Source: Whitmania pigra
Lineage: Eukaryota; Annelida; Clitellata; Hirudinida; Haemopidae
DNA length: 64,000 nt
Reading direction: 5' to 3'
NCBI GenBank assembly: GCA_021613335.1
Contig: JAJTWR010000185.1
Span: 1-64,000 of the forward strand
Below the pieces are notes generated by a model that saw nothing but the letters and a program-made list of their open reading frames with translations, did no database searches and was not told the origin of the DNA. This document shows, in pieces, positions 1,609 to 50,533 of this stretch. The translations under genes and the position numbers were made by a program. Position 1 is the first letter of the stretch. Every line of letters starts with the position of its first letter.

Positions 1609-4109
1609 ATGTTGCTTCGACGGATGAAAACTTTGTTCGGGTTTCTGAAAATGTTTTTATTTTTGTGTTTAATTACAATGGTGGTCGTTGAGACGAAAGG
1701 AGATACCGGTTCGTTTAAAATTATTAAACACATTTAACTTATTGATTTATTCAAATGTAAAAAATATATTTCAATATATTAAATATATCAGAGTTAATTG
1801 TTGTTAACAAATTCTCTTTATCTTATTCGACGGGGCATGAAGCATTTTAAAAGCATTTTATCATTCTACAACCGTTTCAATTAAGACAAATGTTATTCGA
1901 ACGATTCAAAACTTCCGAACACACTTCATTTTGCTAGATGCTTCAGAAGCGGATAAGTTGAAAGAATACTGCCAAAAGGAAGTATTCAAACCTCGATGTC
2001 CAAACGGCGAGGTAATACTGATGAAAAAGGCCACTTACGGGAGAATGAAGACAGGACGATGTCTCATTTTGGATTCAGAGGAAGAATCCATGACTTCGAA
2101 TCCAAGATATCTCGGATGTTTTGCCGACGTTGCGAATGTTTTGGATGGAAAGTGCACCGGGAAAAGTACGTGCGATGTGGCCGTGTTTGACGATGATCTT
2201 CAGAAGCTGAACCCATGTTTTAAGGGACTAGTTTCATACATGGAGATCCAATATAGCTGCGTGGCTGGTAAGTTAAAGACTTTAGCTTAAGTCTGAAATT
2301 CGCAAAAAAAAAGTGTATACTTAACGTTCTTAATCAAACAAACTTGATAAATATAAAATAAACTACATGGTTATTTGTTAATTTGTGTAAACTTGTTTAT
2401 CTCGCGCCAATTTCTCCCTTACAAATGTTTTAATACCCAACAGTTTATGCAGAACATTCGGATTGTCGTTTAATGGCCAAATCAGCTTCAACTACTTACA
2501 TTCTAAGTTCATCTCTTTGGCGCAACAAATGTGGATCAGAGACTAATCCCTTGGTTGTTGAAGCCACATCTGGACAAAAAGTCAAAGTCGGGATCGTCAA
2601 TTTGAATAATAGCGATCAGAATATTATCTGTCCATTCAGTCTAGGACATATAAACGAAAGATCATCCAATAGGAACAAAGAATTTTGCGTCGACAACGAT
2701 GTTAGACATAAAATCATTTACACAAGCCATAAAAATAAGATCGACATTACTTTTGAGAAAGAGAAGGTCACTGATTTTAAACGATATCCCAATTTTGATA
2801 CGTTTCTGATCTCAATTGAAGGTAAATACTGTTGTTCATTTTTAAGTTACTCAAACCCGTTACTTAAAAAAAAAATATAAATATTCAGACTATTCAGTTC
2901 ACAAAGATTGCTTGTAACGCACTTAAATCATGTAGATACACTCAACCATTTATGTAGCGCAAGGTGACCAAAGAGCGCGGGAGAGACTGTTAACATAGTC
3001 TCAACATTCCTATCAGAATTTCTCAAATTAACTTTGCATAGAATAAAACAACAATTTGTTAATTCCAGCGGAAGGATGTTCAGACCTCATACCAGCTGAG
3101 GATTCGTGGCTGAATAGGAAAGACGATTTGGCCACTGTGGGGTGCTACTCGACGAGACAATCTTGGCAGTTAAAATGCGTAGGTAATCGGTGGGTTGGCG
3201 TCGTGGGAAATTGTTCAACCGGATTGATTCAGTCAGGTGATCAATTTATTTAAAAATGCATTTAATTGTTTGATTAAACTACTTATTTTCTTTATTTTTA
3301 AAATAAATATGTACTTCATGAAGCATATAATTGCTTGCTATTGCAGCCAATCCTTCAGACAAATCTTCTACTCAGGTCTTAGTCTCTAAGGACGGAAATC
3401 TCGAAGGTAAGATAAAGGAATGCCAAAATATTTGAACATCATTGGCAGATCGAGTTTCGTAAGAAAATTTACTTAGATTATTAAATTAATTTAATTGAGA
3501 CCTGAAACCTTATTAAGACTTATTCATTAATTAATTAATTATTAAATAATTAACGTTATTATCAAGTGTTAGGCATCTTCGCCATCTCTGGAGCTGGATT
3601 GGCTGTCTGCGGTGTCATCGTTGCTATTGGTTACATGTGTGGGAGGAGGTCAGAGTAATAATTATGCATCATCATAAATATTTTTACGTGTCTTTCAAGT
3701 ACTTCGATTGTAGTTAATTATTAATTAGTTAAGTATTATTAAAATGGTTTTTATATGGGTTCCGATAATAAAACTGTTCTCAAAGTAAATATTATACCAA
3801 TATCACCGTCACATCTGGCCGAATCAACCATCGTATTTGTTAAAATTTCTTACAATTTCTTAGGATTGTCAAAATAGCAATATTCTAATACTTGTTCACA
3901 ATGTCTTTAATGGCCACCTTCATTCCAGATATGAACGTAAAAACTCCAAGTTCTTTGTATCAAAAGAAAAAAGCAATGAAGCGTGTCGAGACACGAATTA
4001 TTACAACCAGCAGTTACAGATTGAGGAATCGAACGACAAAGACATCAGCAACTACGAAACCTCTGCTTATTTTGTACTCGATGAGGTCGCTGTTGATAAA
4101 AACCTGTGA
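1609..4109 (+). CDS. Receptor A: SUEL lectin / CUB-like / sushi-like / TM / YxxL tail
   Basis: Seven exons: 1609-1708, 1938-2267, 2444-2821, 3069-3236, 3347-3406, 3573-3648 and 3929-4109, giving about 430 aa. Exon 1 encodes a hydrophobic signal peptide (a second Met at 1624 is an alternative start). Exon 2 is a SUEL-type domain with YGRMKTGRC and its usual cysteines. Exon 3 is a four-Cys CUB-like module (CGSETNPLVVEA). Exon 4 is sushi-like (GCSDLIPAEDSW, then W-x-L-K-C, then GNCS). Exon 5 is a hydrophilic stalk. Exon 6 is the TM helix (GIFAISGAGLAVCGVIVAIG), followed by a basic stop-transfer. The tail ends SAYFVLDEVAVDKNL. Introns 1-5 are phase 1 and intron 6 is phase 2. This is the only intact family member on the plus strand. 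Its ligand is unknown; a cell-surface recognition role is inferred. Confidence 0.88.
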
Positions 4110-4670
4110 TGTGAATCGGCTATGACTAACATGCATTGCATGTCATTTTGTAATGACTTTCTTTATCTTGCTTTATCTCATGTTACACTAACTATTTATT
4201 AATGGGTAATTAATTTTAGAATTGCTGGTCTGGCTGTAAAACTTTAAACTATGTATTTTGAATACATAGCCAAAAATAAATTTTTTTCTTGAATATAATT
4301 ATTTAATAACATCTTTAGATTTTTTTTCTCGGAGAAAATGTAGTTCCTGTCATTTTTAAACGAATGACATTGATGACCTGATTGATTGGCTTTCGGGTTT
4401 ATAAGTGCTTGAAATGTTGATTTTGGATTGACATTGGAAAATGCAAATCATCGACAAAAACCTTAAATTTAGTTTTGGAATCACCAATTTTGTTACTATT
4501 AATAACAACAACAACAATAACAACAACATTATTAGAAAATGGCCCGTCTCTAAAACCGAGAGCACAAATTATAAACAAGGTGCAAAAGTCTCCTTACCCG
4601 ACAAAATCGAAACAAAAAAAAGCAAGCCAAACATAAACTCAAACATTAACTTCTTTGTCTAAACTAAATT
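4110..4670. other. Intergenic, no recognised gene
   Basis: 3' flank of gene A followed by AT-rich DNA. Short open frames overlap a small AAC repeat near 4503-4530 and match nothing I recognise. Confidence 0.5.
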
Positions 4671-13040: not shown

Positions 13041-13554
13041 TTAATTTGGCGCCTTCAGCTCTTCACGGTCAAGAACAAAATAAGCAGAATCCTGTTCAGA
13101 TTTCAGGACGTTTTGAGGATCTTTGAAGATATTGTAATGAATTTTGTCGTCTGTAAGCGTTTGCTGAATGTGAGGCTGTATCTGACCTGTGACCTGACCG
13201 TAACAGTGGAAGTTATCCAAGGATTTCTTGTAGCCTTTTGAGATCCTGCTCGAAATAATCACGAGTATAATGCATGCAATACATAAACAATAATTTATCT
13301 TTTAATTAATAATTTATTAATTATTTAGTAAAATAAGTATTTAAATAAAAAAAGAAGAATAACAGATTATCAGATTATAAACAAGGGTTCGAGACCTTTT
13401 GACGCAGAATATTCCACAGCAGACGATGAAAGTGCAAACCACAAAACCAAATGCACATATCGATGCCAAAGCCAGAACTGAATCAACGATAAATTAGCAA
13501 TATAGTACATTGCTGAATGACTGGTGTTATGATTATTGTTATAGATGTTATTGA

Positions 13555-13640
<86 letters not shown>

Positions 13641-15322
13641 TTTTAAATTTGTTTACCTTGACCATTTTCGCCGCTGTCTTCTGGACTTGGATTATTTTCC
13701 GAAATTTGATTTTGAAATTTACCTAAATAATTCTAAAACTGTTATGAGAATCCAATGATGGTTGTAATACTGGTAATAACTAAAATGGACTAAACCATTT
13801 TAACATTTTAAACAAGGCTAAATAGTTATAAACTAATTGTATATAATTCTATTTTGACCACTGTTAAACGTATTAGATTTAAATAAATTAAAACCAGAGA
13901 GTGTCCTCGGATAGGTGGCGCCATATAGATGGTAGATCGATTAAATGAATAAGTCCGTCACATCCTATTCGGATACATAAGGCACTCAAAAGATCGACTA
14001 AATACAAATACAAATTTCTTAGAAATAATTAACCCAATAGTCCAAATCATCTCTGTTATGCAACGGACTATAATCAAGTAAATAAATAAATAAATAATTA
14101 AGCCACCCATGGAACAGTTTCCAACAACACCAAGCCACTGGTTGCCAATGCACCTCAGCTGCCATGTTTGTCTCGACGCATAACATCCTATTGTTGCCGT
14201 ATCTTCACTCCTTTTCAACCAAGCGTCCTCAGCTGGTATCAGGTCCAAACATCCAGATGCTAGTGAATAAATGATGAATGAATGAATTAATTTATTATTA
14301 TATGATATATTGCACTGAATTTAAGATTTAACTATTAGAAATAAAATATTTATAAAAAGAGGGAACAGTGGATCACCTGTCATTTCAATCATTACAAAAG
14401 ACTCGTTGCTTCTGATCGGTTTCGTCAGTATCAGTTCCACTGAATTGCTTTTCGACTCGTAATGAGAACTGATCTCCCATTTGCGATCCAGACAAAATTC
14501 TACAGAACTTCGTTCGCTTTTATCGGCCAGATAACCGATTTTGACCTGTGTACTGCGTCCGCTCAGACATCTTTCGTATGAATCGAACAACAGTGGGGAT
14601 GCTGTAAGTCTGCCCGTAATGGAAATCTTTTGCCCAGCGTGAGCTTCCAGTGTCCAGGGACGCTCCTTAGAGCCACAGTAATCTGCTCTGTTTAGAACTG
14701 ATGCAAAGGATATAAGAAACGAACCCTTTTCTGGTTTCACTTGTAGGTTGCAGCGATCGAATGGAGACAAAACTAAAAGTGAAATACCATTCATATTAAT
14801 TAATTTGATTACGCAACTATTACTTTTAAATTAAGTTACATTAAAATTAGTGTTGTAATTTACTGGACAAAAATTCTCGTTTATCTTACCTGTCATGCAC
14901 TGATATTTCACATTCAAATATGTCATGAGACCCTTATAGCAGGGACGTTCTTTGATTTCAAGATCCTTGTCTTTAATGGGAACACTGCACTCGGATCTTG
15001 CTGAGCATTTGCGTCTTAAAACGTCGGTAACGTCGACAAAACATCCAATCCACGATGGATCCTCGGAATGTTTTTCGTCAAGTTCCACGCATTTTCCGAC
15101 GTCCATCCGTCCATATTTGGCGGATTCTATGACGATGACCTCTCCATTTTGACAGCCAGGTTGAAAGATCTCATATTGACAGAGATCTGTAGGCGAAAAT
15201 AAGTCTGTAATATTCCGTCCAATTGATTCCAAATTAGTTAACAAACCCAAATCTATGATTTCTGGTTGACCAAACTTAAATACTTGAAATACAACGATTA
15301 TGGGAATGATAACGCAAAACAT
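13041..15322 (-). CDS. Receptor B: SUEL / CUB-like / sushi-like / TM / YxxL tail
   Basis: Exons, 5' to 3': from 15322 (donor near 15270 or 15243, both phase 1), 15186-14890, 14772-14377, 14259-14107, 13722-13657, 13477-13396 and 13245-13041. The signal peptide begins MFCVIIPIIVVF. The SUEL exon has CQYEIFQPGCQNGEV and YGRMDVGKC. The CUB-like exon has CGSKERPWTLEAHAGQKI. The sushi-like exon is GCLDLIPAEDAWLKR to GNCSMG. The TM runs VLALASICAFGFVVC. The tail ends SAYFVLDREELKAPN. The stalk-TM intron contains a long (ATT)n array. Its sequence is divergent from the E-P block and closest in style to A and C. Confidence 0.88.
13553..13638. repeat. (ATT)n microsatellite in receptor B intron 5
   Basis: Nearly pure run of about 29 ATT units. 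Confidence 0.97.
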
Positions 15323-15430: not shown

Positions 15431-15444
15431 GGGGTCGCCTCAAA
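15431..15444 (-). promoter_or_regulatory. Shared upstream element, gene B
   Basis: Sense strand TTTGAGGCGACCCC. A CTATAAAAC box lies near 15390-15398. Confidence 0.75.
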
Positions 15445-15558
15445 AGAAGCAAATAAAGCTGTGTGATTTAATTAACCAGAACATCACATTTTATTTTGCC
15501 AATGAAGTTATTAAATATAAACTACTTAAATAAGTAAAACCAAAGTGCATTAATTTAT

Positions 15559-17750: not shown

Positions 17751-17874
17751 ACTTTGATATATTTCTTATACTGAATATACTTCCACACAAGTTGGGTTCG
17801 ACTGAAATGATTTTGGTCACAGTATACTGTGGCCTTTTATTTAAGGATGCGTAAGAATATGAGACAAGTGTTCG

Positions 17875-17888
17875 GGGGTCGTCTCATA
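17875..17888 (-). promoter_or_regulatory. Shared upstream element, gene C
   Basis: Sense strand TATGAGACGACCCC, with one mismatch to the consensus at the 5' end. The AT-rich TATA-like stretch is near 17834-17842. Confidence 0.75.
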
Positions 17889-18030
17889 TTGATGTCGTTA
17901 TGCTTTCGACAGCTTTTTTCCAACAACTTGTAGCATTTACTGACTAATTGACATTATTAAAAATGGAAATAAATAGTAGACATTTGATAGTCAAGAAAAA
18001 AAAATATGTGAAATTGTTTTATAAATGTTT

Positions 18031-20216: not shown

Positions 20217-20321
20217 TATTTTATGCAATACAGCCAAAGACAATTTGAACATTTAGTCTGCAAGACTTTCTTTTATACTGCTGCATAAATATTATGATTA
20301 TGTATTGCATGCCAAAATTCA

Positions 20322-33176: not shown

Positions 33177-33306
33177 GTTTAAATCAAATTTTGTAAATTT
33201 TATTCAGACCTGTTCTATTTATCTGTGCGACTTAAATATTATGGTCTTTGCTAGTTTAAGATGCTTTATATAACGTTTGTAACATTTTGTATTCGTGCGC
33301 CTGCCA

Positions 33307-33320
33307 GGGGTTGTCTCAAA
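33307..33320 (-). promoter_or_regulatory. Shared upstream element, gene J
   Basis: Sense strand TTTGAGACAACCCC. GTTATATAAAGC is near 33262-33273. Confidence 0.8.
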
Positions 33321-33487
33321 GCGATGTAATCCGATAGCTAAGATTATAATGAGTTTCCTACTTAAACTGATATTTATTATTATTATAAAAAATAAAAGCA
33401 AACTTTCTCTCTTTTATCAATATTTGAACATTAATAAAATGTTTTTCAATAATATAAATTTATATAGTCAGGTCTGAAATGAAACAA

Positions 33488-36400: not shown

Positions 36401-36897
36401 ATTTAATAAATATTAAATTTATATTCTAAAACACCAAAATAGTTACCTTTAATGCAGGTATATGAAACGTCCAAATACATTTTTAGACTTGCATAGCATG
36501 GGCCATATTTCTCTAAATCAGGATCTGATACTTTTAATTGGCAGTTGTTTTTTCCAGTGCAATGTTTTGAAACAAAAGCGATGACGTCTGTACTGCACCC
36601 CAAATATTGAGGATCATTCCACATACTTTTGAACTGCTGTTCCTCTTTGACGCATTTTCCAAATTTCATCCTGCCGTAATGGGCTTTTGTAATTAGAATT
36701 ACTTCGTCTTGTAGACATAAAGGTCTGAATATCTCTGATTGACAGTATTCTGTGGCTTTAGCTTTAAATATTCGAAATTTTGAACAATTTCTAAATGTTG
36801 AAATCATTTCATTCCACGAAAACGAGAAATGAACAAACAGATAAAACTCACTCATCGTGACAAATAAAATCATACAACAGAAAATATTTATTTTCAT
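33488..36897 (-). CDS. Receptor K: ectodomain class beta, tail class 3, interrupted by a hAT element in intron 5
   Basis: Exon 1 (36897 to ~36853) is MKINIFCCMILFVTMS. The SUEL exon (~36760-36448) has CQSEIFRPLCLQDEVILI and YGRMKFGKC. The CUB-like exon (~36336-35968) has CGTKRQPWIVETMKGQTI. The sushi-like exon (~35892-35741) is the near-invariant version. The stalk (~35668-35597) has NNDKLEVHLVEKPSAEGQPQ. A 1.55-kb hAT insertion follows. The TM (~33888-33807) is VVVIVIICIVGITLCTVISC. The tail has KLATKLFHQRQS and ends NQYFVLDSEYEKKDLSN. The coding exons are intact, so the insertion may be tolerated. The 5' half belongs with G and I, the 3' half with N. Confidence 0.86.
33910..35475 (+). mobile_element. 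hAT-family DNA transposon with 8-bp target duplication
   Basis: The element spans 33918-35467. Its ends are CAGTGATGGGCAAA on the left and TTTGTGCCCATCACTG on the right, forming imperfect terminal inverted repeats. It is flanked by perfect 8-bp duplications GTTTAATA (33910-33917 and 35468-35475), which is the hAT signature. Subterminal AT-rich repeats of GATTTGATTT type lie on both sides. It sits in receptor K intron 5, on the strand opposite to the host gene. Its length is about half that of an autonomous hAT, and the transposase N-terminus is absent. Confidence 0.93.
34092..35134 (+). pseudogene. Truncated hAT transposase (C-terminal half)
   Basis: An open frame starts without ATG after a stop near 34090 (EELQKKSDGL, then AAEPTRWNSNLIMIRRL). 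It continues to 34805, then an intron (GT at 34806, TTGCAG ending 34870) joins QVSDEEDSVY to the hATC dimerisation domain: RLARRLLSIPASSGSVERLF, SGAFVSARRNRLSAPTVESL, stop 35134. The TRWNS and hATC motifs are standard for the family. The BED zinc finger and the first catalytic Asp region are missing, so this copy cannot be autonomous. Confidence 0.88.
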
Positions 36898-36994
36898 ATT
36901 TCAAATTCCTTTAGCATTAAATCGATTGTATTAAACACAATTTTGGTTCAGGCTTTATAAACTTTTTACTAGGCGTAATAATACGCTGATGTCC

Positions 36995-37009
36995 AGGGAT
37001 CATCTCAAA
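36995..37009 (-). promoter_or_regulatory. Shared upstream element, gene K
   Basis: Sense strand TTTGAGATGATCCCT. GTTTATAAAGCC is near 36949-36960. Confidence 0.76.
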
Positions 37010-37256
37010 ATGCTGAAATCGACGAAATGCTTTGTCTGTTTATTTTTAAAAACATTCGGATCAAAATATAAAAACCATGAAATAACATTGATGTTTTATC
37101 CAGCATCTGTATTCCTCAAACCATGACGCATAACTTAAGATCACTTTAATTCATAAAATTCTCAATGCACAGCGAATGAGAAAATACACTTTTAATACAT
37201 TATATTTTATAGCAATTTTAATGTGTCAAGTCCATTTATCTAACGATAGAGACTGC

Positions 37257-39242
37257 TTAATTTAAAACAAGATGTGCGCTTTCTTTAGCCACTTCGTCTT
37301 TGTCCAAAACTTGATATCTTTCATCATCAACTCCTCCGGATAAATAAGACTGAGCCACGTGCCCTGGACCAAATGGCATGTTGTCAGCTAGCTGTTCTTG
37401 TTTGCTAGTTTGAAACATGGGATTTCTCTGATTGAGTGTGTTGGCATTGCCTCCATAAACGTTGAAGTATTTGGTTTCCATTGTATCCTTCGATTTATAC
37501 CTTTCAAATAAAATTCAATGCAACAAAATATGGAGTCTAAGCATGTAAATATTGAGCAAAATAGTTGCGAAGAATCGAGGCAAACCTCTTCAGACAAAGA
37601 CCTCCAATACAGATTATTGCCAGACAGGCGACCAATCCAAATCCGCAAATGGCGACAATTATTAAAACTAGGTGATTAGAAATTATTATTACTTTTAAGA
37701 TTTAATTTAAAAATAAAATAATATTTGCAGTAATATACCTTGCTGTGATGAGGACATTTTAATCTTATCTCCACTCACCACAACTGAGTCGTCTGGAATG
37801 TCTGCATGATTTTTGGATGCTGGATACAATTAAATATTTTTATTGATTCCATTTAAAATAATTTAAAGTTCCCAATGAACCTTCGCTAATAACATAATAA
37901 AAAATGCACATTTCAGTTTAATGACAACTTAAATATGAAAATTCTAACCAGGAACAGAACAGTTTCCTATAGCTCCTTTCCACTGTTTGTTCTCGCATCT
38001 GAGATACCAATTCTGCTTGGATGAATAACATCCGATAACAATGTCGTCATTTGTCCTTTTCAACCAAGCATCCTCAGGGGGTATGATATCCAAACATCCA
38101 TCGGCTGTAACAAATGCAACATAAATGTTTAAATAGGTTTTTCTTCATATAAAAAAAAGTATTCAGTTAAATCTGAGGCAGTTTTGTTGGTTTTTTTTAT
38201 AACAAAAGTTGTAAAATGGAGGTGACCTTCGAGTTTCATTAATGTCAGAGCCTTGACGTCTTGGAGGATGGTGATACTGATAAGATTCCCCTTGGACACC
38301 AAGTGACCAGTAGTTCTTGTTCGAGCTTTTAGCTCTCTAAGTCCTTCTTGGCAGATGGTGAAGTTGTTGTTGTTAATTTTATCCGAAACAATTCCTACTT
38401 CAGACGTACAGAAAGAAGAATCTACACTACTCTCACTGCTATGTTGAGAAAGTCTTTCGATTGACACTTTTACTCTTTGTCCTTTGGGTGTCTCAATCAA
38501 TAACGGTTTTCCTTGTGAACCACACAAGGTTTTGTCAATCGATTTCGGACTGAGATATCTTGGTCTGCCCGTCACAAAAACATGGCAACTGTCTTCTAGT
38601 TCTATTACTGTAATGTTATAAATTATTTTGAGACTTCTATAATTATTTGTTAATCAAGGTGCATGGGTGTGCTTATATTTATTAATTTACTTACCTGGCA
38701 AACAAGAATACTCGACCTCCAGATACATTTTCAGCCCCAAATGACATGCGGTATTTTCTGTATTTTCCAAATCAATAATTTTAATTTCACAAGATTTTTT
38801 CAAAGCGCATTTAGCGTTCAGAACATCCGTAACATCGTTATGGCAACCAAGATAGCGAGGGTCCCGACTTTGGCTGCCAAATCCTTGCATTTCTTTCTCA
38901 GTCAAACATTTGCCAATGTTCATGCGACCGTATTTTGCCTGGTTGATAACCAATACCTCTCCAGCTGGACAATCTGGTTTGAAAGCTTCCCAAAAGCAAA
39001 ATTCACCTGACGTGCCTTTAATTTAGAATTAATTGCAATGTTTTATAAATTTATTAGGATATTGTGCAATGATGTATATTTGTTAAGGCATGTCCCTTGA
39101 TTTACTGTTGCATCGTAATACTGAATTTTTAATTTAATTAAAAAAGCAAAATGATTAACATACCTCTATCATTTTCCACTCGGGAACTGGTACCAAAAGT
39201 CATAGCTTTTACAATTAGCAAATACAAGTATAGATTTGTCAT
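37257..39242 (-). CDS. Receptor L: ectodomain class gamma, tail class 4 (recent duplicate of M)
   Basis: Exon 1 (39242 to ~39165) is MTNLYLYLLIVKAMTFGTSS. The SUEL exon (~39016-38695) has YGRMNIGKC and CHNDVTDVLNAKC. The CUB-like exon (~38608-38222) has CGSQGKPLLIETPKGQRV. The sushi-like exon is at ~38106-37950, the stalk at ~37820-37740, the TM at ~37668-37588 and the tail from ~37502. The tail ends RYQVLDKDEVAKESAHLVLN. The stop used by J and M is changed to a Leu codon here, which adds two residues. Exons and introns from 37.25 to 39.0 kb are nearly identical to 39.6-41.4 kb. Confidence 0.88.
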
Positions 39243-39373
39243 GATTAAATCACTTTTTTTTACAGTTTTATTCATTTCATTTCTCTACCTATTCAAATTA
39301 AATATTATGGTCTTATGCAGTTTGGATTCAGCTTTATATAATGAACTTACGCTTTATATTCGTGCGCCTCTCA

Positions 39374-39387
39374 GGGGTTGTCTCAAA
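39374..39387 (-). promoter_or_regulatory. Shared upstream element, gene L
   Basis: Sense strand TTTGAGACAACCCC. CATTATATAAAGC lies near 39331-39343. Confidence 0.8.
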
Positions 39388-39623
39388 GCGACGTAATGCG
39401 GAGGCTGATTGTAATGAGTTTCTGCTTCGTAATCAGATATTTATTATTATAATGTGTAAACAACAAAGGCATTCCAAGTATTGATAGTATTTAAATTACG
39501 ATCTCTTTGATTCATGCAATTCTCATCAGTTAGCGAATAAGAAAATATACTTTTAATACATTCTATTTGATAGCAATTTTAATGCGCCAAGTCCTTTAAT
39601 CCAAAGATGGAGACTGCTTAATT

Positions 39624-42600
39624 TCAAACGAGATGTGCGCTTTCTTTAGCCACTTCGTCTTTATCCAAAACTTGATATCTTTGATCATCAACTCCTCCTG
39701 ATAAATAAGACTGAGCCACGTGCCCTGGACCAAATGGCATGTTGTCAGCTAGCTGTTCTTGTTTGCTAGTTTGAAACATGGGATTTCTCTGATTGAGTGT
39801 GTTGGCATTGCCTCCATAAACGTTGAAGTATTTGGTTTCCATTGTATCCTTCGATTTATACCTTTTAAATAAAATTCAATGCAACAAAATATGGAGTCTA
39901 AGCATGTAAATATTGAGCAAAATAGTTGCGAAGAATCGAGGCAAACCTCTTCAGACAAAGACCTCCAATACAGATTATTGCCAGACAGGCGACCAATCCA
40001 AATCCGCAAATGGCGACAATTATTAAAACTAGGTGATTAGAAATTATTATTACTTTTAAGATTTAATTTAAAAATAAAATAATATTTGCAGTAATATACC
40101 TTGCTGTGATGAGGACATTTTAATCTTATCTCCACTCACCACAACTGAGTCGTCTGGAATGTCTGCATGATTTTTGGATGCTGGATACAATTAAATATTT
40201 TTATTGATTCCATTTAAAATAATTTAAAGTTCCCAATGAACCTTCGCTAATAACATAATAAAAAATGCACATTTCAGTTTAATGACAACTTAAATATGAA
40301 AATTCTAACCAGGAACAGAACAGTTTCCTATAGCTCCTTTCCACTGTTTGTTCTCGCATCTGAGGTACCAATTCTGCTTGGATGAATAACATCCGATAAC
40401 AATGTCGTCATTTGTCCTTTTCAACCAAGCATCCTCAGGGGGTATGATATCCAAACATCCATCGGCTGTAACAAATGCAACATAAATGTTTAAATAAGTT
40501 TTTCTTCATATAAAAAAAGTATTCAGTTAAATCTGAGGCAGTTTTGTAGGTTTTTTTTTATAACAAAAGTTGTAAAATGGAGGTGACCTTCGAGTTTCAT
40601 TAATGTCAGAGCCTTGACGTCTTGGAGGATGGTGATACTGATAAGATTCCCCTTGGACACCAAGTGACCAGTAGTTCTTGTTCGAGCTTTTAGCTCTCTA
40701 AGTCCTTCTTGGCAGATGGTGAAGTTGTTGTTGTTAATTTTATCCGAAACAATTCCTACTTCAGACGTACAGAAAGAAGAATCTACACTACTCTCACTGC
40801 TATGTTGAGAAAGTCTTTCGATTGACACTTTTACTCTTTGTCCTTTGAGTGTCTCAACCAATAAGGGTTTTCCTTGTGAACCACACAAGGTTTTGTCAAT
40901 CGATTTTGGACTGATGTATCTTGGTCTGCCCGTCACAAAAACATGGCAACTGTCTTCTAGTTCTATTACTGTAATGTTATAAATTATTTTGAGACTTCTA
41001 TAATTATTTGTTAATCAAGGTGCATGGGTGTGCTTATATTTATTAATTTACTTACCTGGCAAACAAGAATGTTCTACTTCCAGATACATTTTCAGCCCCA
41101 AATGACATGCAGTATTTTCTATATTTTCCAAATCAATAATTTTAATTTCACAAGATTTTTTCAAAGCGCATTTGGAGTTGAGAACATCCGTAACATCGTT
41201 ATGGCAGCCAAGATAGCGAGGATCCCGACTTTGGCTGCCAAATCCTTGCATTTCTTTCTCAGTCAAACATTTGCCAATGTTCATGCGACCGAATTTGGCC
41301 TGATTGATAATCAATACTTCTCCAGCTGGACAATCCGGTTTGAAAACTTCCTTTAAGCAAAATTCACCTGATGTGCCTAAAAGATTTTATTCATCATTGA
41401 AATATTTTGTAATTTGAATAGTTTATTACTCAATAATATTAGTAGCATATTCCTTCTTAAGCATGTCTCTGGCTTTACTCTTGTATTGTAATGCCTAGTT
41501 TCAGTGATGGGCAAAAGTTAACTTTTATCAAAAATTTACTAACTATTAGTTAAACTAGTTTTAAACATTGATCGATAAACTCCTATTCAAAATTAACGGA
41601 ATACTAAAAAAGGATGACAATATATCACAGAATATTACAACGAAGAAAAATTAATAATGCTGGAAGAGTTGGCAGAGAACTATAACACACGCCTCCTCCC
41701 TTGGCACAAACTCATTTCTTCCTTCCTCATCAAAGTATCTGATCCTTTAATATTTCTGTATAGTTGAACAACCTTTGTGGACTTCTTGAAACATACCTTG
41801 GCCTGTCCCTGTTTGTCGCAGTTCTTGCATCTACTCGACTCGAAATAGCGTATGTCTGTCCAATATGTCCTTTCCACCACATCCAATGCATCTAATACAA
41901 GATCCTGATGAGGAGCAAAATTTGAACTCGACTTTCCTGCTTGTGGTAATGAGTTGTGCTGCGTCTCGTCCTTCAGACGTTTGTTGTTGTTTGTTGGTGG
42001 CTTCGACATGAAGAAGGGCGGAAATTGGATGTTGACTGTGTTGATAATAGTGTTTTCAATTTGGGTAAATTTTTTCGACGCGTTAATCAAGTCCTCCACA
42101 ATAGATGCTTTTCTCTATCTACGATGCCTTCCTGTACTTAACTGATTCATCATCTTAGCCTTCTCATAGTTACTTTGTTAACTGAATTTATAATTACTTT
42201 GTTGACTGCTTGTAGATGCAAAAAGGCTGATATGCTGATTTTCTTCAAACAAGATTGAAATCAGAAAATTCAGTCTATATATTATCACGTCATAAAACAA
42301 ATTTTGGTTTCTCCTTGCAGTCTTAATGATGTAAAATAAACATATATAACATTGAGTCATCTTTTCAATTGTTATTTAATGAAATAAATATGATAAACAT
42401 TTTGCGGAAAAAAGTGGAATTTATTTAGTTTAGTTGACAACTTTTATAAAGTAGTCGAAACTAATAGTTTAACTAAGATTATTCTGTTGATATTTAGTTA
42501 AATTTTAATTATAAAATTTAGTTAGTGCCCACCACTGTTGAGTTTTCAATTTAATTAAGAAAACAAATGATTAAAATACCTCTATGATCTCCTGCTCTGG

Positions 42601-42658
42601 AACTGGTACCAAAGGTTATAGCTTTTACAATTAGCAAATACAAGTATAGATTTGTCAT
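39624..42658 (-). CDS. Receptor M: ectodomain class gamma, tail class 4 (recent duplicate of L)
   Basis: Exon 1 (42658 to ~42582) is MTNLYLYLLIVKAITFGTSS. Intron 1 is enlarged by a ~1-kb transposon at 41.5-42.5 kb. The SUEL exon (~41377-41056) has FGRMNIGKC (YGR changed to FGR relative to L). The CUB-like exon (~40970-40583) has CGSQGKPLLVETLKGQRV. The sushi-like exon is at ~40467-40312, the stalk at ~40182-40102, the TM at ~40029-39949 and the tail from ~39863. The tail ends DDQRYQVLDKDEVAKESAHLV. The coding frame is intact. Confidence 0.87.
41502..42537. mobile_element. hAT-like element (non-autonomous or decayed) in receptor M intron 1
   Basis: The left end CAGTGATGGGCAAAAGTTAA and right end TTAGTGCCCACCACTG form terminal inverted repeats very like those of the hAT copy at 33.9 kb. 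Flanks CCTAGTTT and TTGAGTTT look like a decayed 8-bp duplication. The paralogous intron of gene L lacks the insert (GTAATACTGAATTTTTAATT around 39115-39135), giving an empty-site comparison. A minus-strand open frame (41680-42099, with SSRCKNCDKQGQ) has no hAT feature I recognise. Confidence 0.78.
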
Positions 42659-42781
42659 GATTATATATCCTTTTCAGTTTTTCAGTTCACTTCTCTATCT
42701 AATCAAATTAAATATTGTGATCTTAGGCAGTTTGAACGCTTTATATAACTTTACATATTTTTTGTATTCGTGAGCATGTCA

Positions 42782-42795
42782 GGGGTTGTCTCAAA
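42782..42795 (-). promoter_or_regulatory. Shared upstream element, gene M
   Basis: Sense strand TTTGAGACAACCCC. GTTATATAAAGC is near 42739-42750. Confidence 0.8.
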
Positions 42796-42958
42796 GCGAC
42801 GTATTTTTAAGGATAATTTTGAGGCTTCTTAATCTAATCTTTATCGTTGTACTATTTAAAAAAGGCAAATGCTATCCACTTTGTTGTTAATATTTAAACA
42901 TTAATAACATGCTTTTCAAGATTTTTATTTTATATAGTCATGTCTAAAATGAAAAAAG

Positions 42959-45011
42959 TTAGTTGCTAGTATCCTTCTTCTCGTATTCCGGGTCCAGCAC
43001 AAAATACTGGTTATTTCCAACTTGATATTTTCCATTTTGCCCAAACTCACAATCGGAGTAAACGGGAAGTCCAGACTTTACCATTTCTGGAATTCCATTA
43101 TCTAGACATGTTTGGCCAGATTTTAAGTTATCATTTTGTGGACGCAAGGTTGATTGGCGCTGATGAAATAGTTTCGTTGCCAGCTTATTTTTTGCATTGT
43201 ATCTAAAAATATCAAATAGACAGATAAATTTTATATTCAATTCATAATAACAAATCGGAAGCAATAGCAGGATGATTTTCACTACCTCTTGAAGCAGACG
43301 ATTCCTAAACAAGAGATGACAGTACACAAAGTGATTCCAACGATGCATATAATCACAATGGCCACCACTGTAACGCAATTAGTTAATCAGATGAATAAAA
43401 AAACTATGAGCATTAATCATTTGCGTGTAACAGTGATTGTTATACCGGTTTTTGTTAAAAGCATTCATATTTTATTTAAATCATCTTACCCTGGGGTTGA
43501 CCTTCTTTGGAAGATTTTTCCACCAAATGAACGTTCAATTTGTCATTATTTATTGACGCTAAAGAATTCGATTTTAACGATGTAAATTTAAAAGATAAAT
43601 GTAGATAATTTTAACGGTATTCTAACAATACCATAGCTGCAGTTGCCGATGACGCCGATCCAACGTTGTCCAAGACATTTGAATTGCCATCTGAGTCGAG
43701 TGGAATAACATCCGATGGTGGCCTCGTTCTCAGTTCTCTTCAACCAGGCATCAGCTGGAGGAATCAGATCCGAGCATCCTGTAGCTATTATGAATGGAAG
43801 GTTTAGACATTTGCGGTTTTCCATTAACAAAATAATCTTAAACTAGTTACCCGTTAATCTCAGAATGCCATATTCGCTTATAAGTTTATCTTCCGATTTC
43901 TTTGGATTAAAAAATATATGAACTGTATTTGATGATGTTACAAAGAATAAGCTGTTGCCTAATCTTCCATTTCCACAAATCGGTACCTTCCTTTTCTCAT
44001 TTGAATCCACAATGTAGCTTTCAAATAAATTGTTCAAACATACTTTTGGCTCATGATCAAAATTGCTTTTAGATGTGTCGCTTTCATTGATCAATAAACT
44101 GATGTTAATTGCTTGACCTTTATAAGCTTCCACCTTCCAAGGGAAATCCTTCGAACCGCAAGTTGATGATGATTTCAATGAAGTTGGGAAAACATGAAGT
44201 TCTCTATCGGAGTTTAATGTGATTGCACATTGTCGGTTGTCTTGAGCAACTGTAACGTAATGTAAATATTCAATATTGTATCTTAAAAGCGATACGCCCG
44301 ATAAAAATTTAAATAAAATAAAAATTATCTGAGATAATGTCACATTAGGTTTTTTAAGAATCAAGTTGCTACTAAATATTTTTAACAATTAAAACTTTTC
44401 ACTCAAACCTTATATCACACTGACATAATGTTCTGATCAAATAGTAATTTTTGGAAATAATAATAATTAAATGATAAATTAATAATAACCCCTGAGGCAG
44501 CTGTAAGAGACATCCAGATACATGTAAAGTTCAGCATAGCAAACACTTTCAGTCACCACTTTTAGGTCAGGTATTTTGATCTCGCATTCTCTCTTCCCAA
44601 AGCACTTCTTTGAAACAAAGGAAGTAACATCAGTGAAACATCCGATGTATTTTGGATCATTTACGAGTCCAATTCCTTGGGTTTCCGTGATGCAGCGACC
44701 AAATCGCATCCTTCCAAATGATGCTTCATGGATTATTATCAACTCATCGTTTTGGCATTGTGGGTTGAATGTCTCAAATAGGCAGAATTCTTCACCACCT
44801 AATTGTTAAATTATTTATTTTAATGATGCTACCTTATTCTATAATTTTTTTAATGAACTTAAAATAATCTAACAAATAACTTCATTTAAAAGGATCTAGA
44901 CGTTCAATTGTCTTCATTATCAGCATGTTAGTTCGAAATTTCAGACAAATACTAACCGATATAATTGACGATGAAAATCTGACAGAGCAAAACAAACTTA
45001 AAATTGTTCAT
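42959..45011 (-). CDS. Receptor N: ectodomain class delta, tail class 3
   Basis: Exon 1 (45011-44959) is MNNFKFVLLCQIFIVNYIG. The SUEL exon (~44799-44490) has CLFETFNPQCQNDELIII and FGRMRFGRC. The CUB-like exon (~44249-43853) has CGSKDFPWKVEAYKGQAI; its sequence differs from all neighbours. The sushi-like exon (~43784-43631) is the near-invariant version shared with E-I and K. The stalk (~43561-43490) is NNDKLNVHLVEKSSKEGQPQ. The TM exon is at ~43370-43288. The tail ends NQYFVLDPEYEKKDTSN. The 3' half, including introns, closely matches gene K. Confidence 0.87.
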
Positions 45012-45101
45012 GATGACTTAATTCTTTAGCAGACATGACAATGCATGGTTTTATAAGTTAAATTTTCAATGAATTCATGCGCGGATCATTACTGAAATCT
45101 G

Positions 45102-45115
45102 GGGGTCGTGTCAAA
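45102..45115 (-). promoter_or_regulatory. Shared upstream element, gene N
   Basis: Sense strand TTTGACACGACCCC. ACTTATAAAACC is near 45049-45060. Confidence 0.76.
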
Positions 45116-45117
45116 TT

Positions 45118-45633
45118 TACAAAACTTATTAGCTAAAATGACTCAATTTCAAAATTTAAAACATTTTCTGGTCAATCTCGCAAACTTTTTGCAACACATG
45201 TTATTAGTATTAACAAATAAATAATACTCTATTTTTTTTTTTACATTTGAAAAATTGCTTTGAATGGAGTGAATAGTTTGCCAGAATAACTATCAGCTAT
45301 TAGATTGATATGAAAGTTCTAAATATTGGTAACTTGTGAGTTATAATTGTTGTTTAATTGTCAACGACGACGACAACGTTTAGAAATTATCCAAAGATCT
45401 TAGAAATATTAAACGTTTAAAAATTATTAACTTTAAAATATTTAATTAAAGCATTACCATGACACACACAAAAAAGAAATATCGAAATTGTTTAGCTCAG
45501 AAAGAAGCATTGAACTCGATGATGACGAAAGTTATGTAGCGAACATTTCGTTTTTGATACGGACAACAGGAGGTTTAAATATTGTAGCTAAAGTCGCCAA
45601 ACGCAAAAAAAGTTTCAAAATAAAAATTTAAAG
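45118..45633. other. Intergenic region between receptors N and O
   Basis: AT-rich 3' flank of gene O. No gene or named repeat is recognised. Confidence 0.5.
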
Positions 45634-48107
45634 TCATTTTAAAGCTGCACACTCTTTTGCCACCTCATCTTTGTCCAGCACTTGATATCTTTCATCGCCA
45701 TCCAGATCTGCATTTTCAGGCATAAAAGGAAGAGTTTGCTTATTAAAAGTCGATGAAGCCATAAATTGTTCTTTAAATCCAATGGCTTGCTGCATGTGAT
45801 TGAAATGTCCGTAAGCAGAATTTCCATTTAAATTTGCTCCATCGCAATAATAGGACTGACTCTTGCCTTGCCTGTGAGCCATTCTAAGAAGCATTATTTT
45901 ATTAACATTACTTTAAAAAAAATAAAAACGCTTTGTCGTCTTTTCGCTAAAATATTTTTTTTTTAAATTCATTTAATTTATGGCTATTTGTTTTGAATAT
46001 CTTACCTTTTTAAATAAATAGTGCCAAGACATACAATCGCTAGACACACGATGACCCCAAATGCTCCGATGGCAATAATGATAAAAGCTGTTCAAAGTAG
46101 TTTAATAATTCTTTACTCATTTACTTCACTAGCATAAAGTTGTTATTATTTAAATGTTGTCATAATTATACTTTGCTGAGTTGAGGACAGATTGAGCTTT
46201 TCGTTTTTGGTCACATCGTCTTTATCAGCTGGTGTGTTTTGTCCTGTTTTAAGGTATTCATAGAACAAGGTTATTATTTTTAAATAAAAGTTATTTCACT
46301 TAATAAATAAATTGTTCATAATATTTATTCCAAAATTAAAAATATTGTAATGAAATGTAACCTGGCTTCAATTTGAAAGTGTCAGGATTAGAGCAGTTGC
46401 CAATGCTGCCTGTCCATTGACTGTTTTCGCATCGAAGATACCAGGTTTGTTTGGATGAATAACATCCGATCACAATGTCCTCATTGGTTCTTTTTAACCA
46501 CGTGTCCTCAGGAGGTATAATGTCCAGGCATCCATCAGCTGATAACATCGGCATAACATGAAGCCACATTATTTATTAATAAAAACAAATATTCTTAATT
46601 TAACCTTAAAATAACAAATCATGTTCACCTTTCACCTCAAGTAGCATTTTGTAATTTCTTTCAAATCTGTTAAAAACCACGCTTATGTGATTTTCCTTGG
46701 ATATGTAGCCATTTGTTACATGAGAACGTGTGCTAGGATTATAAATTCCGTTGTCGCAAAGAGTAGCATTGACTTGACTTTTTCTGTCGATTATGACGCC
46801 TATTTGTCTCTGACATTCGCCTTTTCCAGCTGTTTCGATTTCCCTCAACTGTTTCACTGTGATATGGATGCGTTGTCCTTTAGAGACGTCTACCTTTAAT
46901 GGGTTTGCTTCAGTTCCGCAGAGGATGTTATGACTTGATGTGATGGACAAATACTTTGAGGTTCCAGTCAGGAAAACATGACATCCACTAGATAAATGGT
47001 CGATGACTGGTCGGAAACACAAATTATATGATCAATGTCACGACTGGGTCTAGAAGACCGTCGTGACAAGTTTAATATCCTCTTTTTTTTTGTATTATAT
47101 TATCTATGGCTCGTTGGACATATTTAATTAATTTTGTTATCGTTGAATAATTGTTTGTAAAATAAGTTAACAGAATTATTAATATTTGCTAGGCTCTTAG
47201 TTGATCCTTAATGAACCTAATTTCGTGAATTTTAATTGGTTGTTTTTGTGCGCAGTAACCTATTTACATGTGTTGTGATTTGTCAATATTTATGTGCTTT
47301 GGTTAATGATTGGCTGTCGTCATGGACACGAATAATTTTGAATAATTAACTCGATGAGAATGATATAAGTCTAGCCCGAATAGCGGGAAAGGGAAGAGAG
47401 CTAGTTAGTTAGAGTTAGAGTTAAGAGTTAGTTTGAGGCCGGTTATCTGCAGTTGATGTGTTAAGAAGTGTGAATAAAGCTTGTTTTTACAATTGCTATT
47501 AGCTAGTTCAGTATTCTTTGTGGTAGAAGTGGCGTCGACCACGGTCACGGAGCATCGGTCGTGACAATCAAGAAACAACATCCTATTACTTTTAAAATTA
47601 AAATTCATAATAATTAATTAATCAAGAATTACCTGAAAGGCAAGAATATTTAACTTCGAGATACATTTTCAATCCTGGGAAGCATTCAGTATTTTTTAGT
47701 TGCTCGAGAATTCCTACTTTCATTTCGCACTGTCTTTCGAGAGAACAATTTCTGCTTACAAACGCAGTAACATCGTGATAGCAGCCAAACATTTTGTGAT
47801 CCAAGCTTTGAGATCCAAAAGCATCAATTTCAGACTGAGCCAGACACTTTCCTATTTGCATCCTTCCATATTTTGCATCCTCAACAAACACTACTTCATT
47901 TGAGGAACATTCTGGTTTAAAAGCTTCCCACAGACATAACTCTGTCAGCTTCTCTACATAAAAGTTAAACGATTTAAAATTTTGGAACTCGACAAAGACT
48001 GTTAAAATATTCAAATTTCAATTTTAACCTTTTCCATCCAATGAATTCGAAAAGCATACGATGACTGGTAAAACAATGGTAATAAAGATCACTTTGGCAA
48101 TGAACAT
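45634..48107 (-). CDS. Receptor O: ectodomain class gamma-like, tail class 4, with a solo LTR in intron 2
   Basis: Exon 1 (48107 to ~48029) is MFIAKVIFITIVLPVIVCFS. The SUEL exon (~47952-47634) has CLWEAFKPECSSNEVVFV and YGRMQIGKC. The CUB-like exon (~47006-46630) has SGCHVFLTGTSKYLS and CGTEANPLKVDVSKGQRI. The sushi-like exon (~46540-46375) has GCLDIIPPEDTWLKRTNE and GNCSNPD. The stalk is at ~46243-46172 and the TM at ~46091-46010. The tail (from ~45885) has QSYYCDGANLNGN and ends GDERYQVLDKDEVAKECAALK. The tail upstream of YQVL differs from J, L and M. Confidence 0.86.
47031..47571. mobile_element. Solo LTR (531 bp) with 5-bp target duplication
   Basis: The LTR at 47036-47566 begins TGTCACGACTGGGTC and ends CATCGGTCGTGACA, giving TG...CA termini within short inverted repeats. 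Perfect ATCAA duplications flank it (47031-47035 and 47567-47571). An AATAAA signal occurs near 47472. No internal retrotransposon sequence is present, so it is a solo LTR left by LTR-LTR recombination. It lies in receptor O intron 2, between the SUEL and CUB-like exons. Confidence 0.9.
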
Positions 48108-48259
48108 TTTATCCAAAAGTGCATGAAAATGCTTTAAGATCTAAACTTATATATTATTTTTGAGGCAGGAGTCGTTATTATGAATTTCTAAAGTGCTTCT
48201 CCACAAAGTTATATTAGAGCCAACCTTAGGTAAGGTAAGCATACGCGCTGCAATTTCAA

Positions 48260-48273
48260 GGGGTCGTCTCAAA
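48260..48273 (-). promoter_or_regulatory. Shared upstream element, gene O
   Basis: Sense strand TTTGAGACGACCCC, a perfect match to gene A. Confidence 0.82.
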
Positions 48274-48554
48274 AAAAAGTATTTAAACGTGGAAAACATG
48301 TGATTTAATTGTATTTCTTTAAAATGAATTGTCTACTTAAATCACTCAAAATAAAAATTAATACAACGACAGTAAATTTTATTCATACTTATAGAACTTG
48401 TTCTCCTGATATATCTTTAAGAAAAATCCGAAAAAAGCATGTAATCTAATGCAATTATCAGTCTTTATTTAATTAATGAATGAATAAATAATAATATAAA
48501 TAATTTACATAAATTTTAGAAAAGTAACAATTTAAGAATCAAAACACATGACAT

Positions 48555-50533
48555 CTAAGCGAAAGCAGGACATTCTTTGGCAACTTCATCTTTGTCCAGC
48601 ACTTGATATCTCTCATTTCCAGTTCCTCCATCGTCGGAATGTGGAAGCTTATTAAATGTCGATGGAAAAAGAGATTGGCCTTTAAAACCACTGTTATCTG
48701 GATAGCGGTTAACATGCCCATAAGTCAAATTGCCGTACAAACTTGGTTCATTTATGTATCCTTCTTTTTTAGCTTCTTTTACTTTCATACTAAAAATAAT
48801 TATAAAAATAATCGTTAAGAAACATTTATTTTATCTCTAAAGAGCATTTTTGTTACTTTTTTAGATAGACAAATCCGAGGCAGACAATTGCTAAGCAAAT
48901 TACCAGTCCAAATCCGCAGATTGAAATTATGATCAGTGCTGAAATGGTTGGTTAGTGGGTTAGGATAGATTGAAAATTGCTAAAATAGTACAAACTTTGG
49001 TGACTTGCGGACATATTCAATTTAAAATTTGTAACGCCTTCACTGTTTTCATAATTACCATCTTAAAATCAGGTATTGTTGATGTTGAATTGCATATAAA
49101 ATTGTAACAAATACTTGCATTACCAGATCTTGTAATAAATGAGTTAGGATTGGAACAATTGCCAATAACTCCTGTCCATTGACTATTTTCGCATCGAAGA
49201 TACCAGGTTTGTTTGGATGAATAACATCCGATCACAATGTCATCATTGGTTCTCTTGAGCCACGTGTCCTCAGGAGGTATTATGTCCAAACAACCTTCAG
49301 CTGGTTTTAAATAATGAGTCAATGATGTTGCTCATCGTTAAATCTCATAGTTTGTAGGAAAGTATATAAAATAAATTACTATCACAAAATGTTCAGGTTA
49401 AATAGTATACGATTATTAATCGTTAATGGGAAAATTTGAAGGTGGAATGATGTTGTTTGCTTACCTTTCATTCCCAAAAGAACATTTTCGTATTGCTTCA
49501 GTCGATAGAGAATTACGTGTATTGCATTGCCTTCAGATGTAAAGCTTTGTTTAATATGTGATGGACTAATGGGGCTATAAAATCCTGTTTCGCAAATGGT
49601 TATATTTATGTTGTTTTTCTTCAAAACTATCAACCCAAGTTCTTGCTTGCAATCATTATGTTCCTCGAGTTGGTTGTTATCAAAAGCTTTGTAAGTGAGT
49701 TTAATTCTTTGTCCTTTCGGAACTTCTATGGAAATCGGAGTACCAGCGGTGAAGCATGGCATATTTTGCATGGTTGAAATTGACGAGTATTTTGGAGATG
49801 ATGATAAAAACACTTCGCAATTATCAGATTGATGAAGTACTGCAAAAGATCCAGTGGTGGAACAATATTTTAGTTATAATCTTAATTATAAATAACTAAA
49901 TTATTTATATCGTTACTCAATAGGAATATTTAAACTTATACAAATGATCATTCTATAACTCTTTTGAAACAAACGTATATTTTTCTTAAATTCTTAACAG
50001 CAATATTTTCGAGATTTTTATCAATATTTGAAAAAAAAACATCTACGAAATGCAATTTTACCGGGTAAGCAGACATATTCTACTAGCAAGTACATTTTTA
50101 GTCCAGGAATGCATGACGAGTGTTTCAACTGCTCCATATCTGCAACTCTGATTTCACATTGTTTTTCGTTGTAACATCTTTTGTTCAGAAACCCTGTGAC
50201 GTCATCATAACAACCAAAACTTCGGGGATCTTGGCTCTGAGGACCAAGAGCTTCGACATCAGACTTTGACAAACATTTCCCGATGTCCATTCTCCCGTAT
50301 CTTGCATCGTTGATTAAAACAATCTCATTTGAAGCACACTCCGGTTTAAAAACTTCCCAGAGACAGAGTTCTGCTTAATATTTGGTGACGTACAGTCAAA
50401 TGGAAAACGACACCAACACTACACAAGAAAAAAAGATAAATAATTAAGTCAAACCTTTCGTTGTTTCAGAATCGATGTATTTCAAATTGTTTATGAAAAC
50501 GTATATCATGATGGCATTTATATGACCAAACAT
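48555..50533 (-). CDS. Receptor P: ectodomain class gamma-like, tail class 4
   Basis: Exon 1 (50533-50456) is MFGHINAIMIYVFINNLKYI, a weaker signal peptide than in other members. The SUEL exon (~50373-50064) has CLWEVFKPECASNEIVLI and YGRMDIGKC. The CUB-like exon (~49843-49464) has CFTAGTPISIEVPKGQRI; the usual CG is replaced by CF. The sushi-like exon (~49302-49130) is GCLDIIPPEDTWLKRTND to GNCSNPN. A stalk lies near 49060-48996 (less certain) and the TM at ~48942-48860. The tail (from ~48788) reads MKVKEAKKEGYINE, then GNERYQVLDKDEVAKECPAFA. O is the closest relative. Confidence 0.84.

Follow-up and report, generated by a model that had tools for sequence, protein, structure and literature searches.

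A tandem array of sixteen predicted SUEL/CUB-like/sushi-like membrane receptor genes, with an exon 4 nearly uniform in one subset, in Whitmania pigra

The window analysed here comprises 64,000 nucleotides of contig JAJTWR010000185.1 of the annelid Whitmania pigra (GenBank assembly GCA_021613335.1, positions 1 to 64,000) and contains sixteen genes, A to P, with A on the plus strand and B to P on the minus strand. One common predicted order was found, in which a signal peptide (exon 1, E1) is followed by a SUEL domain (E2), a CUB-fold domain (E3), a short sushi-like module (E4), a stalk (E5), a transmembrane segment (TM, E6) and a tail (E7). The predicted products of these models are type I membrane receptors, and the sixteen genes belong to a larger tandem array. 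In seven of them, E4 is of a nearly uniform kind, termed type I, across which heads (E2 and E3) and tails (E5 to E7) appear to have been re-paired. The genes are as follows.

1609..4109, plus strand: gene A; E1 1624-1708 (upstream ATG 1609), E2 SUEL 1950-2267, E3 CUB-like 2444-2821, E4 sushi-like 3069-3236, E5 3347-3406, E6 TM 3573-3648, E7 3929-4109 (SAYFVLDE)
13041..15322, minus strand: gene B; E1 15247-15322, E2 14890-15204, E3 14377-14772, E4 14107-14259, E5 13657-13722, E6 13396-13477, E7 13041-13245
15559..17750, minus strand: gene C; E1 17672-17750, E2 17197-17493, E3 16610-17011, E4 16294-16446, E5 16071-16136, E6 15912-15993, E7 15559-15781
18031..20216, minus strand: gene D; E1 20132-20216, E2 19476-19790, E3 18969-19361, E4 18755-18907, E5 18503-18577, E6 18332-18413, E7 18031-18229
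20651..22478, minus strand: gene E, type I E4; E1 from 22478 (donor unsettled), E2 22009-22314, E3 21510-21884, E4 21289-21441, E5 21153-21227, E6 20989-21070, E7 20651-20876; head group 1, tail group 1
22708..24517, minus strand: gene F, type I E4; E1 24436-24517, E2 24027-24332, E3 23562-23936, E4 23322-23474, E5 23183-23257, E6 23020-23101, E7 22708-22942; head group 1, tail group 2 (mosaic)
24874..26484, minus strand: gene G, type I E4; E1 no candidate, E2 26176-26484, E3 25699-26076, E4 25467-25619, E5 25322-25396, E6 25159-25240, E7 24874-25081; head group 2, tail group 2
26975..28795, minus strand: gene H, type I E4; E1 28720-28795, E2 28266-28571, E3 27804-28175, E4 27585-27737, E5 27443-27520, E6 27259-27340, E7 26975-27194; head group 1, tail group 1
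29111..30899, minus strand: gene I, type I E4; E1 30839-30899, E2 30420-30725, E3 29946-30317, E4 29725-29877, E5 29594-29668, E6 29430-29511, E7 29111-29327; head group 2, tail group 2
31283..33176, minus strand: gene J, type II E4; E1 33098-33176, E2 32709-33029, E3 32260-32640, E4 31970-32125, E5 31745-31825, E6 31593-31674, E7 31283-31523 (DDERYQVLDKDE)
33488..36897, minus strand: gene K, type I E4; E1 36852-36897, E2 36447-36755, E3 35967-36335, E4 35738-35890, E5 35596-35664, E6 33806-33887, E7 33488-33722 (E6/E7 boundaries hand-set); head group 2, tail group 3 (mosaic); hAT-like element in intron 5
37257..39242, minus strand: gene L, type II E4; E1 39164-39242, E2 38695-39006, E3 38227-38607, E4 37949-38104, E5 37739-37819, E6 37586-37667, E7 37257-37500; recent duplicate of M
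39624..42658, minus strand: gene M, type II E4; E1 42580-42658, E2 41056-41367, E3 40588-40968, E4 40310-40465, E5 40100-40180, E6 39947-40028, E7 39624-39861
42959..45011, minus strand: gene N, type I E4; E1 44957-45011, E2 44490-44798, E3 43851-44249, E4 43632-43784, E5 43490-43558, E6 43286-43367, E7 42959-43202; own head, tail group 3 in common with K
45634..48107, minus strand: gene O, type II E4; E1 48029-48107, E2 47633-47953, E3 46629-47006, E4 46362-46538, E5 46172-46243, E6 46006-46087, E7 45634-45883
48555..50533, minus strand: gene P, type II E4; E1 50455-50533, E2 50062-50373, E3 49465-49839, E4 49124-49300, E5 48996-49061 (weak splice sites), E6 48857-48938, E7 48555-48789

Profile scans of splice-bounded open stretches in the window revealed 16 SUEL, 16 CUB-like and 16 sushi-like exons, and E2 to E7 were open in 16/16 genes when each exon was checked singly (with K's E7 boundary hand-set to 33722), which confirms the sixteen intact genes of one layout described in an earlier note on this DNA. 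Of the seven exons per gene claimed there, E2 to E7 hold throughout, and E1, the least certain part of the models, has a candidate in 15/16 genes, with none found for G in the hydropathy-based search. TM and tail exons were assigned in 15 genes via script lists, some candidates, such as C's TM, being hand-picked; those of K were assigned by hand reading because a hAT-like element occupies its intron 5. Stalk exon candidates were obtained for 16/16 genes, the splice sites of P being weak. As intron phase 1 before E2 to E6 and phase 2 before E7 were set as a search requirement, the phases are consistent with genes and are not an independent finding. Spliced models had the final stop as their sole stop in 14 of the 16 genes (G taken without E1), and the model of E is interrupted at the chosen E1 donor. 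Exon 1 and TM assignments are based on hydropathy only; the signal peptide and TM thus predicted support the type I membrane layout. The short YxxL tail proposed earlier is likewise borne out, E7 encoding about 60-80 residues that end in Y-x-[VEI]-L-[DE], with a YxVLD-type end in 16/16 genes.

The SUEL profile (PF02140) scored above the Pfam cut-off in 16/16 window exons and matched 10/10 aligned members, constituting the only credible match among Pfam, NCBIfam and PDB sequence searches; the best PDB matches of this exon were latrophilins (E 6e-9). E3, previously called CUB-like, was supported as a CUB fold with four Cys by structural matching, with C1s CUB2-CCP1 among its matches. Judged against a CCP fold with four Cys and a late Trp, the sushi-like reading of E4 found modest support in the structural comparison and none from the Pfam Sushi profile; neither the CUB nor the Sushi profile matched the array proteins, whose sequence is too distant. 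At E <= 5, the Pfam search of the 10 aligned members listed ten families, none of them of the immunoglobulin (Ig) type, and it gave no protease domain match.

For comparisons between copies, fifty genes with E2, E3 and E4 on contigs C94, C6 and C191 were used. The sequence analysed covered C94 to 74 kb, C6 at 617-637, 640-670 and 704-714 kb, the whole of C191 and pieces of C93, C68 and C192. From C191, copies up to 27 kb were used, those further along being part of a 98% duplicate block, and some of the fifty genes are still near-duplicates, e.g. C6 704063 and C191 10339.

The type I E4 is 153 bases long and present in E, F, G, H, I, K and N; a DNA search with it returned 27 matches, 20 on C6 and seven on C94, and none on another contig. 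Among 20 genes, the mean difference was 5.0 of 150 bases and the maximum 9, with 16 of the 20 sequences being distinct, and the 120-base flanks on each side showed 26-41% identity position by position. An identical E4 peptide was found in 17/50 sampled genes. Flanking introns were compared in 300 pairs from 25 genes at a similarity threshold of 70%, the maximum in 40 shuffles being 68%. Both flanking introns were similar in 0/300 pairs, and the 280 pairs with neither flank similar had a mean E4 identity of 95.9% (minimum 92.8%); for such pairs among the first 150, E3 identity averaged 62%. Diversity is about 0.65 in the introns, sinks to 0.00-0.07 in the E4 core and rises again towards both exon ends. 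Mean amino-acid identity of type I pairs was 46% in E2, 30% in E3 and 96.5% in E4. Synonymous codons at conserved residues differed at 54.7% (E2), 57.2% (E3) and 9.3% (E4) in type I, versus 54.2%, 58.3% and 45.9% in type II, as determined from 321/325 and 183/190 pairs with near-duplicates above 85% in E2 left out.

On either side of E4, the type I genes of the window fall into different groups, the heads forming E,F,H / G,I,K / N and the tails E,H / F,G,I / K,N. The tail tree is rejected by the head alignment, and the head tree by the tail alignment (approximately unbiased test, p 8.2e-10 and 1.2e-5). One-sided flank similarity across E4 was evident from C6 644791/647156, where intron 3 is 93% and intron 4 38% alike, and from C6 640110/644791, where intron 4 is 97% and intron 3 37% alike; C6 653874/656701 and K/N behave likewise, and the E7 exons of K and N are 86% identical with the corrected K boundary. 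Altogether, 20 pairs were discordant at the 70% threshold, seven of them clearly.

These patterns would fit a mechanism in which the introns and heads of type I genes are too diverged to pair, and the E4 core of about 140 bases is the longest homology common to them, for which reason ectopic conversion and unequal crossing-over would resolve within E4. Each exchange event would homogenise E4, and crossovers would join the promoter, signal peptide and head of one gene to the stalk, TM and tail of another. Judging from sequence comparison, we consider it probable that gene conversion and crossing-over at E4 keep the type I exon uniform and re-pair heads with tails. That E4 serves as a built-in recombination joint, i.e., a 150-base homology module that its own recombination keeps uniform and that rapidly re-pairs promoter-plus-heads with tails in the germline between haplotypes, giving new combinations of recognition and output, is a more tentative proposal, to which we give rather less than even chances.

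Alternatively, E4 could be uniform through selection on DNA or RNA (a splicing element, an overlapping antisense gene or structure), the head/tail conflict being older. The drop in identity at the exon edges would suit this explanation, as would the identical E4 peptide in 17 of the fifty genes, but type II E4 differs at 46% of synonymous sites, the one-sided shared flanks of K/N and C6 644791/647156 indicate exchange across E4, and diversity climbs towards both ends of the exon, as for short conversion tracts bounded by non-homologous introns; we regard it as improbable. In its direct form, nucleotide constraint on E4 as such was rejected for type I, because the type II E4, the same exon in the same layout, served as control and differs at 45.9%. 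An assembly artefact, in which collapsed or chimeric repeats mimic both the uniform exon and the head/tail swaps, appears very improbable: the cluster is indeed divided among three contigs (C6, C94 and C191), and the end of C6 falls within it, but the E4 copies are not collapsed (16 distinct among 20, up to 9 differences per 150 bases), the same pattern is seen on two contigs, and after a collapse long flanks would be identical, with no switch at a 153-base exon.

A second feature common to the genes is an upstream element, TTTTGAGACGACCCC, which was found 17 times in the window with <=3 mismatches, versus 0.89 expected. Each of the 16 genes has one copy upstream, on its own strand; the 17th match, a weak one with 3 mismatches, is inside the hAT-like element of K intron 5.

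1542..1556, plus strand: upstream element TTTTGAGACGACCCC of gene A, exact match
15431..50733, minus strand: upstream element TTTTGAGACGACCCC of genes B to P (0-3 mismatches), low coordinates 15431, 17875, 20323, 22654, 24629, 26735, 28914, 31005, 33307, 36996, 39374, 42782, 45102, 48260, 50719

In 47 of the fifty genes (three having too little upstream sequence), the 900 bases before E2 contained an 11-base core with <=2 mismatches in 41 cases, and the controls gave 0/50 downstream and 3/47 for the reverse complement. Exact 14-mers numbered 14 genome-wide, nine on C6, C94 or C191 and five on other contigs, with none for the reversed control. The earlier note had overlooked this element, as well as the uniform E4 and the exchange of heads and tails.

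Tyrosine motifs in the tails were classified by simple pattern, the ITIM (immunoreceptor tyrosine-based inhibitory motif) being [SIVL]xYxx[LIV] in a cytoplasmic tail and the hemITAM (hemi-immunoreceptor tyrosine-based activation motif) requiring two acidic residues just before a single YxxL. Y-x-x-L was present near the C-terminus in 48/50 sampled genes, the misses, C6a_635916 and C6b_668485, lying at the ends of analysed stretches. D or E directly follows the L in all 48 tails, and acidic residues precede the Y in several (DDERYQVL, GEDKYYVL).

Taken together, we infer a repertoire of recognition heads, with E2 and E3 as the presumed ligand side, coupled to signalling or endocytic tails and co-regulated via the upstream element; immune or self/non-self recognition would be its most likely setting. 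The array might instead consist of endocytic or scavenger receptors, the C-terminal YxxL being an AP-2 type YxxPhi signal and the array widening cargo or microbe uptake. The frequency of the motif (48 of the fifty genes) speaks for this, but the acidic residue after L in all 48 and those before Y in several exceed YxxPhi; we rate it as possible, if rather unlikely. A role in fertilisation or reproductive recognition, with SUEL and CUB used as in egg or sperm proteins, would agree with the tandem expansion common in reproductive genes, but nothing in the analysis points to germ cells and cytoplasmic tyrosine tails are unusual for egg lectins, which makes this role a poor candidate.

Several observations weigh against the repertoire reading with exchange at E4. 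Concerning the heads, the rhamnose contacts of latrophilin-1 are given as Glu42, Tyr63, Gly117 and Lys120 in the part of the source available (PMC3269628). The Lys120 position is M, S or T in 16/16 heads, the contact Lys being lost, and the Glu42 position, aligned through C. elegans LAT-1, is Q, L, F or I in 16/16. Gly117 is retained in 9/16, and the sole contact retained throughout is Tyr63, at an aromatic position (Y 11, F 5); the Asp of DPC is lost in 16/16 heads, and (Y/F)GR and the DPC-site Cys are present. Since the Lys120 and Glu42 positions are changed in every head and Gly117 is kept in nine only, canonical binding of L-rhamnose or D-galactose is doubtful, and the heads may bind a protein or other ligand. 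"Lectin-headed", as the earlier note had it, therefore applies to the SUEL fold and hardly to sugar binding. Diversifying selection on the heads was not seen: for the 14/120 gene pairs computed, non-synonymous divergence (dN) exceeded synonymous divergence (dS), among cells with both values, only in E5 of G/K, where both are saturated and thus gave no usable dN>dS, and the close pairs L/M and J/L are under purifying selection; values for K's E7 were void and excluded. As regards the tails, 4/16 window tails were ITIM-like and 12 do not fit that pattern, 3/16 fit the two-acidic hemITAM rule, and 9/16 have the Y-x-x-L core only, which is also compatible with the endocytic YxxPhi motif. In the flank comparison, thirteen of the discordant pairs reach 70-73%, not far from the highest shuffled value (68%), so that seven of the 20 are clear. 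Over longer windows, the side switches across E4 can still be seen but lose sharpness, since AT-rich introns aligned with gaps score about 52-73% even on the side taken as unrelated. Finally, the three contigs C94, C6 and C191 could represent either haplotypes or consecutive segments; between 66 and 74 kb, C94 matches C6 and C191 at 94-99% identity.

To place the array in the genome, matches to its modules were collected. At least 142 SUEL matches were obtained from the best 150 of 172 candidates scored, and the E4 peptide gave 110 matches with all 135 candidates scored: 37 at C6 619-711 kb, 20 on C94, 11 on C191, seven on C68, C93 and C192 near their SUEL copies, and 35 elsewhere. With 37 sushi-like exons over 92 kb of C6, the array extends there. 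Among the 35 exons off the array contigs, 18 lie <=10 kb downstream of a same-strand SUEL match (compared by eye). The SUEL and sushi-like pairing hence seems to exist in dispersed genes, and the array probably arose by expansion within a wider family. Two tandem copies of a 6.6-kb block, 98% identical and carrying several array genes, are present on C191 (C191:6108-12734 and 27672-34282), and segmental duplication therefore also expands the array. An exact upstream element (C6:719415-719428) stands 60 bases before the end of C6 and lies 7.5 kb from a partial E2 match, a spacing as in C191 before an O-like gene, so that the array probably runs on; we lean towards C94 continuing past the end of C6, a conjecture from sequence that is unproven. 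The stretch C94 9.65-12.9 kb had short repeat matches only elsewhere (best 40 of 579 candidates). On C26, C376, C202 and C220, some SUEL matches contain stops or cover only part of the domain, as though it were spread over two exons, and further SUEL gene types are therefore present in the genome. COX1 matches on C115, C49, C360 and C47 are bacterial by gene content and base composition; the assembly therefore includes several bacteria. An annelid host is indicated by numerous innexins and by the C-terminal domain of the erythrocruorin linker, an annelid-specific domain, for which 4/5 matches exceeded the cut-off.

An alignment of 10/16 genes searched against 5.8 billion predicted proteins yielded 2002 candidates, none at E <= 0.001. 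The SUEL/CUB/sushi-like/TM layout was not named in the literature searched by title and abstract opening. In the sections available, a rotifer lectin paper describes SUEL in large membrane-associated proteins of bdelloids, and a paper on the annelid Olavius lists SUEL lectins, the word CUB being absent there. The SUEL and sushi-like combination may not be private to the array.

The remaining features of the window are a further E4 copy, a transposable element and neighbouring gene-like stretches.

57691..57834, minus strand: degenerate extra exon 4 copy (sushi-like) from the profile scan; no E2/E3 match between 51 and 69 kb
33918..35467, strand unassigned: hAT-like transposable element in K intron 5; ends CAGTGATGGGC...GCCCATCACTG, 8-bp duplication TATTAAAC on both sides (read by eye)

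The element is presumed to be hAT-like from its ends and duplication length, and its 238-aa open reading frame had no Pfam match. On the plus strand at 53025-59400, F5/8 type C-like exons are repeated, and related sequence is also present on C191 and at C94 63-66 kb. The neighbouring genes are weaker than the earlier note had them: the one F5/8-like exon scanned scored just below Pfam's cut-offs, and the open reading frame at 11044-11451, taken as the "reeler" meant there, gave no Pfam match. At 6200-8600, a gene-like stretch gives a weak FG-GAP hit; it is one of a multicopy family with further members on C6 564-585 kb, C192, C193, C93 and C68 at 71-84% identity.

Among known systems, latrophilins and rhamnose-binding lectins have in common with the array a SUEL domain with (Y/F)GR and the DPC-site Cys, whereas the array proteins have one predicted TM and no G protein-coupled receptor part and have lost the sugar-contact Lys and the DPC Asp in 16/16 heads. 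C1r, C1s and the MASPs likewise place a CCP-like module after a CUB fold, C1s CUB2-CCP1 being among the E3 structural matches; the array proteins differ in lacking a protease domain match, in being membrane-anchored by model and in having sequences beyond the reach of Pfam CUB and Sushi. If the SUEL and sushi-like pairing is indeed dispersed, the array would be part of a broader receptor family that has no name as yet.

The nearest functional analogue among the systems compared, as far as the available parts of the source allow, would be the Botryllus FcoR of the fuhc locus, which are type I proteins with a signal sequence, a sushi domain and one TM, several copies per locus, and whose tails bear an ITIM, a hemITAM or a lone Y-x-x-I/L/V core, with alleles and splicing swapping tail motifs (PMC12065747). 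A sushi-like module, a single predicted TM and, by simple pattern, the same three tail kinds are found in the array. FcoR, from a tunicate and not an annelid, carry Ig domains and not SUEL and CUB, and the swaps there are allelic and by splicing, in the array genomic at E4; because the array proteins gave no Ig match, the resemblance is a likeness and not membership.

Recombining receptor arrays are already known. In Siglec-11/16 (PMC5701461) and the CEACAM1-related genes (PMC2832619), conversion homogenises the ligand-binding part of nearby immune receptors, and signalling differs, according to the parts of these sources at hand. The array shares with them nearby receptor genes with exons homogenised, here probably, by conversion, but the arrangement is the reverse: the heads are diverged (E2 46% and E3 30% vs E4 96.5%) and the membrane-proximal sushi-like exon is homogenised and would act as the joint. 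What distinguishes the array from the cases compared is the set of diverging heads, the one uniform membrane-proximal exon with its edges at splice sites, and the probable re-pairing of heads and tails across it. In so compact a locus, it becomes testable by what route new recognition is tied to a particular output in animals that have no adaptive immunity, and, if the proposal is true, the exon 4 joint would amount to an innate equivalent of modular receptor assembly that needs no dedicated enzymes.

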